Of a DNA stretch of 64,000 nucleotides, positions 1,101 through 50,762 are shown piece after piece. Where the stretch lies: positions 3,783,501 through 3,847,500 of the forward strand of contig RHDP01000001.1 of the NCBI GenBank assembly GCA_003725745.1, in the 5' to 3' direction. Positions within the stretch are counted from its first letter, which is position 1, and every line of letters starts with the position of its first letter. Made by a program: the position numbers and the translations under genes. Source of the DNA: Streptomyces sp. I6. GTDB lineage: Bacteria; Actinomycetota; Actinomycetes; Streptomycetales; Streptomycetaceae. Below the pieces are notes generated by a model. The model was not told where the DNA came from. It made no database searches and saw nothing but the letters and a program-made list of their open reading frames with translations.

Positions 1101-1655
1101 GTGAACGAGAAGGACATGGGAGCCGATCTCAAATCGGTGCTCATCACCAAGGAAGAGATCGACGCGAAGCTGGCCGAGCTGGCCGCGAAGATCGATGCGG
1201 AGTACGCGGGCAAGGACCTGCTCATCATCGGGGTCCTCAAGGGCGCCGTGATGGTGATGGCGGACCTGGCGCGTGCCCTGTCCACGCCCGTCACCATGGA
1301 CTGGATGGCGGTGTCCTCGTACGGCGCGGGCACCCAGTCCTCCGGAGTGGTCCGCATCCTCAAGGACCTGGACACCGACATCAAGGGCCGGCACGTCCTG
1401 ATCGTCGAGGACATCATCGACTCCGGTCTGACCCTGTCGTGGCTGCTGTCGAACCTCGGCTCCCGCGAGCCGGCCTCGCTCGAGGTCTGCACGCTGCTCC
1501 GCAAGCCGGACGCCGCCAAGGTGGCGATCGACGTGAGGTGGATCGGGTTCGACATCCCGAACGAGTTCGTCGTGGGCTACGGCCTCGACTACGCGGAGAA
1601 GTACCGCAACCTCCCGTTCGTGGGTACCCTCGCGCCCCACGTGTACGGGGGCTGA
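1101..1655 (+). CDS. hpt: Hypoxanthine phosphoribosyltransferase
   Basis: This purine-salvage enzyme joins hypoxanthine or guanine to PRPP to make IMP or GMP in the cytosol. The 184-residue product carries the PRPP-binding signature [11 protein letters not shown] at residues 99-109, with the paired acidic residues, and the [11 protein letters not shown] strand-loop at 40-50 that binds pyrophosphate. The GTG at 1101 is used here. The ATG at 1116 is an alternative, preceded by GAGAAGGA but only a couple of bases away. It lies between tilS and ftsH, the conserved actinobacterial order, and is probably co-transcribed with tilS. The frame is complete and the length is typical. Confidence 0.95.
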
Positions 1656-1837
1656 GGCGCGGACGTGCTCCGGGGAACCCGGGCCGCCCTCCCGCCGTTG
1701 GAGCATGGGAAGGCGGTCCCGAGTGACAATGCTGGGGTACCGTCCGAAGAGCAGTCTTTCAGTCAGTCTCACAGCAGCAGTCTCAGAGCAGCATTTACCT
1801 ACGGGCAGGAGGGACGGGGCGGCACCGCTCCGTATGG

Positions 1838-3862
<2,025 letters not shown>

Positions 3863-45814: not shown

Positions 45815-46948
45815 TCAGACGTAGCGCTCCAGGATGGACGACTCGGCGAGGCGCGAAAGCCCCTCGCGGACGCTGCGGGCGCGTGCCTCGCCGACGCCGT
45901 CGACCGTCTGGAGGTCGTCGACGCTGGCGGCCAGCAGCTTCTGCAGGCCGCCGAAGTGCTCGACGAGCCGTTCGATGATCGCGCCTGGCAGCCGCGGCAC
46001 CTTCGCGAGGAGCCGGTAGCCGCGCGGGGACACCGCGGAGTCCAGCGTCTCGGGCGATCCGCTGTATCCCAGAGCACGTGCCACGATGGGCAGCTCCAGG
46101 AGTTCCGCGTGCGTCAGGTCGTTGAGTTCGGCGAGTGCCTCGTCGACCGTGCGGGAGCGCTTGGCGGTCGGCTCCGGGACGTAGTCGCGGACGACGAGTC
46201 CGCGCTCCGGCTCCACGCCGGCGATCAACTCGTCGAGCTGGAGTGCGAGGAGTCGTCCGTCGGTGCCGAGTTCCACCACGTACTGCTCGATCTCCGTGGC
46301 GATCCGGCGCACCATCTCCAGCCGCTGCGCGACCGCGGTGACATCGCGGACCGTCACCAGGTCCTCGATCTCCAGTGCCGACAGCGTGCCGGCGACCTCG
46401 TCCAGCCGGAGCTTGTAGCGCTCCAGCGTGGCCAGCGCCTGGTTCGCCCGGGACAGGATCGCCGCGGACTCCTCCAGGACCCGCCGCTCACCGTCCACAT
46501 AGAGCGCGATGAGGCGCATCGACTGGGACACGGAGACGACGGGGAAGCCGCACTGCTTGGACACGCGGTCCGCGGTGCGGTGCCTGGTACCGGTCTCCTC
46601 GGTCGGGATCGAGGCGTCGGGAACGAGCTGCACACCGGCTCGGTGGATCTTGGTGATGTCCTTGTCGAGGATCAGCGCCCCGTCGAGCTTGCACAGCTCG
46701 CGCAGCCGGGTCGCGGTGAACTCCACGTCCAGCACAAAGCCGCCCGTGCACATGGATTCGACCGATTTGTCCATTCCCAGGACGATGAGGCCACCCGTGT
46801 TGCCCCGAAGAATGCGCTCGAGGCCGTCACGCAGGGCGGTGCCCGGGGCGACCGCACTGAGCGAGGCGCGCATCAGCGCGTCCGTGCCGGATCCCCCGGG
46901 GCCTCCGCCGGACTTTCCGGGTGCTGAGCCCCGGTCGTTGGCTGCCAC
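45815..46948 (-). CDS. disA: Diadenylate cyclase / DNA integrity scanning protein DisA
   Basis: DisA makes the second messenger c-di-AMP from two ATP and slides along DNA. The 377-aa product has the N-terminal DAC domain with DGA at 89-91 and RHRTA at 122-126, a helical linker, and a C-terminal helix-hairpin-helix domain ([22 protein letters not shown]). In Streptomyces c-di-AMP acts through riboswitches and potassium and osmotic control. The GTG at 46948 has GGAGGAG a few nt upstream. It follows radA by 44 bp and is almost certainly in its operon. Confidence 0.96.
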
Positions 46949-46992: not shown

Positions 46993-48402
46993 CTACCGGC
47001 GCGGGGCGTCCGCCGGTGGGGCCTCCGCTCTGCGCCCGCGCGGGAGCACTCTCAGCGCGTCCCCCATGTCGGCGACTTCCGTGACCTTCATACCAGGCGG
47101 GACCCTGCCCGGATCGGACGGGACCAGCGCGTGGGTGAAGCCCAGGCGGTGCGCCTCGGCCAGCCGCCGCTGGACCCCCGTGACGCGTCTCACCTCGCCC
47201 GCGAGGCCCACTTCGCCGATCGCCACCAGGTTCTTGGGCAGCGGGGTGTCGCTCGCCGCGGAGGCCAGCGCCAGGGCGACCGCGAGATCCGCCGCCGGCT
47301 CGGAGAGCTTCACACCGCCGACCGTCGCGCTGTAGATGTCCCTTTTGCCCAGGGCGGTGATGCGCCCCCGCTGTTCCAGCACGGCCAGCATCATCGACAC
47401 CCGCGAGGTCTCCAGCCCGGAGGTGGTGCGCCGGGGCGAGGGGATCTGCGAGTCGACGGTCAGCGCCTGCACCTCGGCGACCAGCGGGCGGCGGCCCTCG
47501 AGGGTCACCGTGAGGCAGGTGCCCGGTACCGGCTCGTCCCGCCGGGTGAGGAACAGCCCGCTGGGATCGGCGAGTCCGGTGATGCCCTCGTCGTGCAGCT
47601 CGAAGCAGCCCACCTCGTCCGTGGCCCCGTAGCGGTTCTTGACGCCGCGTACGAGACGCAGCCGGGCGTGCCGGTCGCCCTCGAAGTGCAGCACCACGTC
47701 CACGAGATGCTCCAGCAGCCGGGGGCCCGCGATCGCGCCGTCCTTGGTGACGTGCCCCACCAGCAGCGTGGACATGCCGCGCTCCTTCGAGGCGCGGATC
47801 AGCGCACCCGCGACCTCCCGGACCTGGGCCATCCCGCCCGGGGCCCCGTCGATCTCGGGGGAGGCCACCGTCTGGACGGAGTCGAGCACCAGCAAGGAGG
47901 GCTTGACCGCGTCGAGATGGCCGAGGACCGCGGACAGGTCGGTCTCGGCGGCGAGGTACAGATGGTCGTCGAGCGCGCCGATCCGGTCGGCACGCAGCCG
48001 GACCTGACTCGCGGACTCCTCACCCGTCACATAGAGCGTGCGGTGGTCGTCGCTCGCCGCCTTCGCCGCGACGTCCAGCAGCAGCGTGGACTTGCCGACG
48101 CCCGGCTCGCCCGCGAGGAGCACCACGGCGCCGGGCACCAGCCCGCCGCCGAGCACCCTGTCCAGCTCGTCGACGCCGGTCGTGCGGGCGGTCGCCTGCC
48201 GGCCGTCCACCTGCCCGATGGGCAGGGCTGCGTTGGTGACCCGGCCGACGGCGGTCGTGCGGACCGCGGGCGCCCCGTACTCCTCCACCGTGCCCCAGGC
48301 CTGGCACTCGGGGCAGCGGCCGAGCCATTTGGCGGTCGTCCATCCGCATTCGGTGCAGCGGTAGGACGGCCGGTCCTTGGAGGTCTTCGTACGGGCAGCC
48401 AT
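46993..48402 (-). CDS. radA: DNA repair protein RadA (Sms)
   Basis: RadA is a RecA-like branch-migration helicase that processes recombination intermediates. The 469-aa product has an N-terminal zinc finger (C16, C19, C30, C33), Walker [10 protein letters not shown] at 98-106, the RadA-specific KNRYG motif, and a C-terminal Lon-like domain. The ATG at 48402 is chosen over in-frame starts farther upstream because homology begins there and TACGGT lies exactly 7 nt before it. The radA-disA pairing is conserved in many Gram-positives, where RadA is reported to inhibit DisA. Confidence 0.95.
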
Positions 48403-48415: not shown

Positions 48416-48639
48416 GCGCCGGGCACCGACAACGCGCCCGGGGGTCCCGGGCCGGGGGCTCAGGGCGGGACGGACGGCGCGCCTGCCCGCTGACGGACGC
48501 ACATGCGGTGCGCATAGGCCACGTTGGTAAGCACAATCACCCGCACCGTGGCAAATGCTGCTGTTCTCTTTCGAGGGATCGCTTCACCCGTATGGATTAA
48601 ATGTGCTCAAGTCGCGCGAAGGGTGTGCCAGACGCTGCC

Positions 48640-48645
48640 TACGGT
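48640..48645 (+). promoter_or_regulatory. Putative -10 of a leaderless promoter (gene at 48652)
   Basis: TACGGT ends 6 nt before the GTG at 48652. Confidence 0.45.
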
Positions 48646-48651
48646 CGCCGG

Positions 48652-50438
48652 GTGACGAGCAGCATGCTGGAGCCCCCCGCGCAAACCACCGGTGCACACC
48701 GCGCACCCTGCCGTGCGCCCCGGCCGACGCTCGGGCAGACCCCGCCCGCGCGGTACGAGCCCTATCTGGACGGGCTGTTCACCTACTGCCTGTCCGTGCT
48801 CTGCGACCACGGCGCAGCGACGGCCGTGCTCGGGGAGGTCCTCGCCGCCGCCGAACGGCACCACGGACGCGGCCCCGCCGACGAGGAGCACCGAAAGGCC
48901 TGGCTGTACGCCCTCGCCCGGTGGGCCTGCCTGCGCAGGCTGAGAGAGCAGCGGCGCCGGCGCCAGGGCCCCGGGGCGCACGCGGCTCGAACGGGCGCGC
49001 ACGCGGCGGGGGCCGGGGCGCGCTCCGGAGGGGGCGGTGCACCGGAGGGGCGGGACGAGTCCCCGTCGCCGCCGGAGACCGAGGAGCGGCACCGGGCGGA
49101 ACTCGCCCGGCTCGCCTGGCCGGAGGCCGCGGGCACCACCCCCGAGCAGCGCGAGGCACTGGAACTGGCCGTGCGCCACCGGATCGGTCCCCGCGGCGTC
49201 GCCGCCGTGCTGGGGATGGAGCCGGCCGCCGCGCGCGAACTCCTCTCGTCCGCCGCTTGCGAGGTGGAGCGCACCCGCGCGGCCCTCGCCGTCGTCGAGA
49301 CCGGGAACTGCCCCTCGGTCGCCCGGCTCACCGAGGACCGCCGGGTACTGCTCTCCGCCGCCCTGCGGCGCGAACTCGTCCGCCATGTCGACGACTGTCC
49401 GCGCTGCCGCCGGGCTGCCGAGCGGGCGGGTGCCGGGGGACCGTGGCCGGGCTCGACCGCCACACCCGCGGCCACGCCCGCCGCGCTCCCCTGGCCGTCG
49501 CGCCCCGCGAAGAGGCGCACGCGGCGATGCTGCACGTACCGCGAGCCCGCGCCGCCGCGCCCCGCTTCGGACGCGACGGCTTCCCGCTGGACCCCAAGGA
49601 CCACGCCGCCCGGCGGAGCCGGCTCCGGGCCCGCGCCGTCACCACCACCGTGGTCGCGGCCGTGGTCGCCGCGCCCGTGCTCGCCCTCTGGGCGTCCTAC
49701 CGGGGTGACTCCCTGACCGGCGAGGCGCACGACGGCCCCGCGGTTTCCGCGAGCGAGGCCGACGACACCCAGTCGACGGGGGGTGTGCCGTACGACCGCT
49801 ACGAGAACGCCGGCAACGCGCACCGGGACGGTCCGGACCCCCGGTTCGCCGTCGGCCCGCCGGGCCCGGGGGCCGGGGACGTCACCGTCGAGGTGATCAG
49901 CCCCGGTTCCTCACCCGGCGCCACCGGTGCGGCGGGCCGTGACGCCGGCCGGATCTCCGTCGGCGCACGGCCGTACGGAGAGTCCGTGCTGCTCACGCTC
50001 ACCTCCTCCGGCGACGCCCCGGTCTCCTGGTCACTGTGGACGGACGCGCCGTGGCTCTATGCCGACCGCACCTCCGGCACGCTGTCGCCGGGGGAGTCGG
50101 TCATCGTCCGTGTCCTTGTGGACCGTGCGGCGGAACCGGCAGGTCAGTGGAGCGCCCGTATCGGCATCGACCCCGCCGGAACGGTCCTGCAGATGCGCGG
50201 CGGGGGATCGTCGCAGACCCTGCCTCCGCCGTCCACGGAGCCGTCGCCGCCGTCGTCCGAGCCTCCCGCCGAGCCGCCGCCGTCCGCCGAGCCGCCGCCT
50301 CCGCCGTCGTCGGAGCCGCCCCCGTCCACGGAGCCGCCGCCGTCCGCCGAGCCCCCACCGGCGTCGGAGCCCACGCCGCCATCCGAGCCTCCGCCCTCGG
50401 CTGAGCCCCTGAGCGAGGCCCCGGCCATGCCCGGATGA
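48652..50438 (+). CDS. Sigma-like / HxxxCxxC / transmembrane / BACON-domain fusion protein, one 1-base loss
   Basis: About 595 aa after restoring one C in the run at 49488-49491. Residues about 30-100 (YEPYLDGLFTYCLSVLCDHG...WLYALARWACLRRL) resemble ECF sigma region 2, and about 160-215 (TPEQREALELAVRHRIGPRGVAAVLGM) resemble region 4. HVDDCPRC at 245-252 is the H-x3-C-x2-C pattern of zinc anti-sigma domains. A transmembrane helix follows at about 329-349, then an external Ig-like BACON domain (about 400-515) and a tail of Pro/Ser/Glu repeats. Function unknown. The frame break lies between the zinc motif and the helix, so the fusion depends on the correction. The divergent neighbour is radA. 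A 22-bp repeat starts at its stop codon. Confidence 0.75.
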
Positions 50439-50522
50439 CGAAGCGTTTCCCTAGGTACGACGAAGTGTCTCCTTCGGTACGACGAAGTGTCTCCCTCGGT
50501 ACGACGAAGCGTCTCCCTCGGT
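50435..50522. repeat. Four 22-bp tandem repeats beginning on a stop codon
   Basis: Units at 50435, 50457, 50479 and 50501, consensus ACGACGAAGTGTCTCCCTCG followed by GT. The first unit contains the TGA (50436-50438) of the BACON gene and is the most diverged. Confidence 0.92.
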
Positions 50523-50762
50523 ACCGGGACCGCGAAGCGCCGTGCCTCCGGCGGACCGCCCGGTAGCGGCCGCCCTCGCGGCGAGGACACGGCCGCGACC
50601 GGTCGGCCGCGGGCGGACGGCCCCCGCCCCGGTGCCGCTCCATCCGCTCCTCGGATCAGCGGTGCCCCACGCGGCGGCCGCGGCCCCTCCGCCAGGGGCG
50701 GGCCGCCCGGATCCGGCCGGGCGGGATCCGGATGCACGGGACCCGGGACCGTGTGGCTCGGG
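50439..50762. other. Non-coding space between convergent genes
   Basis: 324 bp: the 22-bp repeat array at the left, then GC-rich sequence with CCCGGG-rich fragments and no gene or clear terminator. Confidence 0.5.

Follow-up and report, generated by a model that had tools for sequence, protein, structure and literature searches.

The gene analyzed here lies on the plus strand at positions 48652 to 50438 of a 64,000-nucleotide window from Streptomyces sp. I6 (the window is the whole stretch of DNA that was analyzed), next to radA and disA. It appears to encode one chain with a sigma factor-like half, a zinc anti-sigma-type module, a membrane helix, and an outer BACON domain, here called the BACON fusion protein. 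In the assembly, the two halves of this protein are encoded by two overlapping reading frames, and the switch at approximately 49.47 to 49.50 kb falls in a Pro/Ala linker with the zinc module on one side and the membrane helix on the other. No base was restored at the break; the N- and C-terminal pieces were each searched separately. A single open reading frame (ORF) was found in 27 of 29 relative loci (L016 and L037 contain only part of the gene). The same was true, with a terminating stop codon, of 72 of 80 database loci, the remainder being cut at contig ends (five) or not parsed (three). This database set consists of the best 80 of at least 544 confirmed loci, 78 of them titled Streptomyces and the other two Microtetraspora glauca and Actinobacteria bacterium OV320. 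Since the loci were selected by the peptides LDGLFTYC and LAWPEAAG, the conservation of these two stretches is biased.

Because relatives encode both halves in one ORF, the halves are not separate genes, and the single chain assumed in the original prediction after frame repair is borne out. That two genes were artificially joined by this repair, as the different frames in the window could suggest, is exceedingly improbable in view of the intact ORFs. The frame break is probably a sequencing error, since an ECF52-like gene of the same assembly is likewise split between frames and the assembly, in two contigs, has a completeness of 87%. In that second gene (L053, positions 1515 to 3541), the C-terminal domain apparently lies in another frame, with the change, judged by eye, within a Pro-rich stretch.

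The sigma half comprises a region 2-like domain of three helices (48757 to 48963, plus strand) and a region 4-like helix-turn-helix domain (49072 to 49302, plus strand). In single-sequence scans, Sigma70_r2 matched the window with an E value of 0.0024 and 18.1 bits, under its cut-off of 24. None of the Pfam or NCBIfam sigma cut-offs was reached by the window sequence, nor were the NCBIfam ones by the relative L058. As such scans were too weak, profile comparison was used instead. A family profile of 25 rows was compared with ten extracytoplasmic function (ECF) sigma factors of the own genome and scored 78.8 (E = 7.4e-12) across regions 2 to 4, the alignment stopping where the recognition helix begins. 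Among 100 column-shuffled controls the highest score was 26.1, and the reversed control reached 16.9. The ten factors (comparison set A4) come from 12 ECF stretches found in the genome, which has 37 Sigma70_r2 matches in total; L044 and L054 were excluded. L054 (1171 to 3597) is a long open frame in which parts resembling a lytic enzyme and a sigma factor are joined to a Pro-rich tail.

Structure prediction for the N-terminal piece of the protein in the window gave a sigma2 fold and a helix-turn-helix sigma4. The f2 ortholog, which comes from a different family within the order, passed the cut-offs of TIGR02937 sigma70-ECF (barely, 43.0 against 42.9), Sigma70_r2, and BACON_2. Profile comparison and predicted structures agree in supporting the presence of ECF sigma regions 2 and 4, which had been proposed from the window alone. 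In the own genome, a search with the full family profile up to an E value of 10 returned only the gene itself. When the family profile was searched against PDB sequences, the matches were three of PhyR type (E = 0.008 to 0.22) and three S30 ribosomal ones in an Arg-rich segment, all of which were judged to be chance.

The zinc anti-sigma-type module (49309 to 49428, plus strand) has its putative ligands at 49309 to 49311 (C), 49384 to 49386 (H), 49396 to 49398 (C), and 49405 to 49407 (C). The last three form H245-x3-C249-x2-C252 at 49384 to 49407, the motif that the original prediction had placed at residues 245 to 252. In the window, zf-HC2 matched below its cut-off (E = 0.032, 14.8 bits against 22.2). 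All four ligand columns (Cys221, His246, Cys250, and Cys253 in the L058 numbering) were kept in 70 of 70 relatives. These 70 rows are the database loci after exclusion of the eight incomplete or unparsed ones (three not parsed, five cut at contig ends) and two of over 700 amino acids; 46 of them form set A3, and 50 together with the window form set A5. The NCBIfam antisigma model matched the f2 ortholog at E = 2.4e-8, well under the cut-off of that model.

A single transmembrane helix follows at 49635 to 49700 (plus strand), Arg-rich side first. A hydropathy scan detected one membrane segment in 64 of the 70 relatives, in keeping with the single helix expected, and two in the other six. The mean charge of these proteins was +2.6 ahead of the segment and −0.3 beyond it. 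According to the positive-inside rule, an established rule of membrane topology, this would place the N terminus inside. The BACON or Ig-like domain (49878 to 50204, plus strand; Pfam match proper 49974 to 50144) is thus predicted to lie outside. BACON_2 matched the window with E = 3.1e-6 and 27.4 bits (cut-off 25), the sole curated cut-off passed by the single sequence, and was present in 18 of 18 relatives scanned. Among the 12 families listed for these 18 proteins there was no carbohydrate-binding module family, and an NPCBM-associated (NEW3) match occurred in one of them. No receiver family was listed in Pfam scans of the window (to E 1) or of the relatives (to E 0.1). The chain ends in a Pro/Ser/Glu-rich tail (50217 to 50435, plus strand), so that BACON domain and tail are both found where the original prediction had them.

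Ratios of nonsynonymous to synonymous substitution rates (dN/dS) were calculated by the Nei-Gojobori method, pooled over 1713 of 2415 pairs picked by synonymous divergence. They were 0.27 for sigma2, 0.24 for sigma4, 0.36 for the zinc module, 0.39 for the juxtamembrane part, and 0.08 for the membrane helix. Values of 0.58 (BACON), 0.64 (tail), 0.75 (inner linker), and 0.94 (outer linker) were obtained for the other parts. This pattern indicates constraint on the inner domains and above all on the membrane helix, while the outer part varies more freely.

Other fusions of sigma domains to a zinc module were also found. At seven order-mate loci (L136 to L142), a second sigma-zinc protein without BACON adjoins the BACON one; searched same-genus relatives carry only the BACON type. 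At four of the seven (L139 to L142), radA lies inside the fetched stretch and is divergent. A same-genus genome contains two proteins (L166, 911 to 2461; L167, 898 to 2688) composed of sigma domains, zinc module, membrane helix, and an outer domain that is, by its motif, putatively CAP/SCP-like. The best relative beyond the order, L163 of genome G058, is 46% identical over 285 residues and lies approximately 1 kb from radA. Since it is on the same strand as radA, with one gene in between, its arrangement is not the divergent one of Streptomyces. In a tree that took 7 of the 25 rows of set A2, the 20 rows of fusions (proteins with and without BACON, the CAP type, and the class relatives L163 to L165) were separated from the conventional ECFs and the ECF52-like row with a support of 98/96. 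The Streptomyces BACON proteins stood on a long stem. L053, the sole ECF52-like row, fell among the conventional ECFs on a very long, unsure branch.

The glutamine of sigma region 2.2 has a role in core binding. All ten ECFs of the own genome that were compared keep it, as do both CAP-type fusions. In the BACON fusion, this position is occupied by Gly (all seven Streptomyces rows compared) or Tyr (all four order-mate orthologs). The four BACON-less paralogs all have Arg there, the three class relatives have Arg or His, and the ECF52-like protein has Ala. In all 70 Streptomyces rows, the 15-residue recognition helix of region 4 was acidic, with a net charge between −1 and −3. The ten conventional ECFs sampled ranged from +2 to +6; values of +1 to +2 were found for L163 to L165 and the CAP-type fusions, and +2 for the ECF52-like protein. 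Three of the four BACON-less paralogs had acidic helices (−2 to −5); the fourth was at +5, with uncertain alignment. Two order-mate orthologs (rows bacon_f3b and f3c) have extra residues directly ahead of the recognition helix. Thus, of the features expected of a functional ECF, homology to sigma2 and sigma4 was found, and the region 2.2 glutamine and a basic region 4 helix were not. We read these data as promoter reading being lost step by step from a sigma factor that keeps its fold, probably its clamp too, and remains under selection. The graded series would run from the CAP-type fusions, with glutamine and a mildly basic helix, through the class relatives and the order-mates to Streptomyces.

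Such a loss could also mean that the sigma half is a mere scaffold, in a membrane protein that is linked to the wall and has a cytoplasmic part without any remaining role in transcriptional control. The Pro-rich tail, the BACON domain, and the very conserved membrane helix would fit this, as would the missing sigma hallmarks. However, a passive scaffold need not keep the four zinc-ligand columns and the sigma cores, which are conserved across the 70 rows, and we regard this explanation as improbable.

Nearly every genome sampled in the order carries the protein. A match was found in 41 of 41 genomes within the order, and the 25 same-genus relatives in this sample had one match apiece. With the C-terminal half as query, matches were obtained in 50 of 61 genomes: the own genome, 33 of 36 from the same genus, all 15 from the same order, and 1 of 9 from the same class. 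The same-genus genomes that yielded no such match (G001, G008, and G017) are each assembled in at least 630 contigs. The C-terminal-half match in G058 belongs to a subtilase-like frame (L143) and was rejected as an ortholog. Of 40 genomes sampled in the class, 13 produced a match of any kind; these include three same-genus genomes and many weak matches to ordinary sigma factors.

The position of the gene is kept as well. Both radA (46993 to 48402, minus strand) and disA (45815 to 46948, minus strand) were upstream and divergent in 79 of the 80 database loci, so that the divergent arrangement noted earlier for this window extends to the relatives. Two downstream neighbors, a minus-strand gene and a gene that is presumably Ppx/GppA-like, were found in 74 of 80; the other six loci span at most 7.9 kb. 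Reportedly, disA and radA are named in one study of S. coelicolor (PMC3897704). RadA and DisA of Streptomyces pacificus (L068) are 99% identical to those of the window and the fusion protein only approximately 70 to 75%, indicating that the fusion gene evolves much faster than its neighbors. Just past the stop codon, at 50454 to 50525, a unit with GGTACGACGAAG occurs three times head to tail, at a spacing of 22 bases.

Alignment of 78 upstream regions revealed a very conserved element of 29 bases, TTCACCCGTATGGATTAAATGTGCTCAAG, at 48583 to 48611 (plus strand). Its core occurs once without mismatch in the own genome and in three places in total with up to two mismatches; a reversed-pattern control gave none. 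A −10-like hexamer of the TANNNT type, TACGGT (48640 to 48645, plus strand), ends six bases ahead of the GTG start codon and suggests a leaderless transcript; element and hexamer together point to a tightly regulated promoter. The upstream regions were also compared with the consensus sequences of BldM Group I and Group II, as given in excerpts of PMC4125116. At least 11 of the 14 fixed Group I positions were matched by 73 of 78 upstream regions and 25 of 780 first-order Markov controls, and at least 10 of the 12 fixed Group II positions by 67 of 78 and 51 of 780. Since the upstream regions are related by descent, this likeness amounts to one site at roughly 3 to 7% chance. The resemblance of the element to a BldM site is a lead only to possible developmental control.

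Our preferred reading, held tentatively, is that the BACON fusion protein is a membrane-anchored, ECF-derived regulator in one chain, which is clamped by its own zinc module and acts by protein contact, as a sigma mimic, not by ordinary −35 recognition. On the inner side, the zinc module would clamp the sigma half; outside, the BACON domain would sense a wall or surface signal. This signal could be relayed by the highly conserved membrane helix, possibly through cleavage, and open the clamp. The freed sigma half would then contact proteins, either holding or releasing another anti-sigma factor or touching the RNA polymerase core. Protein contact seems likelier than promoter reading, because the region 2.2 glutamine and the basic −35-reading helix are lost.

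A rival that we consider possible but doubtful is that the protein works, like ECF52/SCO4117, as a genuine one-component sigma factor: the signal would free the sigma part, which would join RNA polymerase and recognize divergent promoters of its own. The layout is the same as in ECF52, the f2 ortholog passes the sigma70-ECF and Sigma70_r2 cut-offs, and the helix is still mildly basic in L163 to L165 and the CAP-type fusions. The purifying selection on both sigma domains also fits a working sigma factor. Set against this are the consistently acidic recognition helix, the region 2.2 glutamine lost in the Streptomyces rows, and the sigma cut-offs unmet by the window and, for NCBIfam, by L058.

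A more specific form of this mimicry, which we put forward as rather unlikely, is a membrane-anchored decoy. Promoter reading would be lost and the fold and zinc clamp kept; a cell wall signal would release the decoy sigma (or the zinc module) and thereby redirect other sigma/anti-sigma pairs in Streptomyces growth or development. Such a protein would be a transmembrane, one-chain counterpart of PhyR. If promoter reading is truly lost, this gene, so widely kept beside radA and disA, would show one way for a sigma factor to become a membrane-bound decoy.

No study of the BACON fusion protein was found in a literature search covering titles and abstract openings, most subscription papers lying outside its coverage; matches for BACON domain and Streptomyces concerned other subjects. 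Excerpts of PMC8999054 describe, as ECF48, ECF52, and ECF53, sigma factors that carry a zinc anti-sigma module and a membrane helix in the same chain; SCO4117 of Streptomyces coelicolor is the ECF52 example (excerpts of PMC5826349). For ECF52 and ECF53, the same excerpts propose that a signal opens the clamp, perhaps with cleavage, a prediction repeated in an excerpt of the review PMC10766802. The original prediction of a one-component transmembrane switch therefore stands as to its layout and not as to the novelty of the concept. That it is a working transcription switch is doubtful, since the region 2.2 glutamine and the basic recognition helix are lost.

A zinc finger behind the sigma domains, a membrane helix, and a Pro-rich C-terminal part are features that the BACON fusion shares with ECF52. 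As far as these excerpts go, SCO4117 and the BACON fusion both combine, within a single chain, sigma2-sigma4, a zinc finger, a membrane helix, and a Pro-rich outer part with an outer domain of binding type. The outer domains differ: SCO4117 has a carbohydrate-binding module (smart00776), located past its Pro-rich part, and the BACON fusion has BACON. The own genome has L053 as a separate ECF52-like gene, a label given from layout with no comparison with SCO4117. ECF53 and ECF48, likened to the BACON fusion by description only, have a zinc module and one or two membrane helices behind the sigma domains (excerpts of PMC8999054), and the class relatives may belong to them. The CAP-type fusions share the clade and the layout but have a CAP-like outer domain and the region 2.2 glutamine.

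Zinc anti-sigma factors of the RsiW and RsrA type likewise have H-x3-C-x2-C and an upstream ligand; in the BACON fusion, however, the module sits behind its own sigma domain and the upstream ligand is Cys. PhyR is a response regulator with a receiver, in place of which the BACON fusion has zinc module, membrane helix, and BACON; like PhyR-type mimics, it has a sigma-like domain without promoter-reading residues, as judged by fold and charge only. Thus, the concept of sigma and anti-sigma in one chain is already known from ECF52 and ECF53. What is new, at the level of sequence, is a radA-linked lineage with a conserved sigma half (dN/dS of approximately 0.25) that lacks the region 2.2 glutamine and has an acidic recognition helix in place of the basic one of the ten ECFs sampled.
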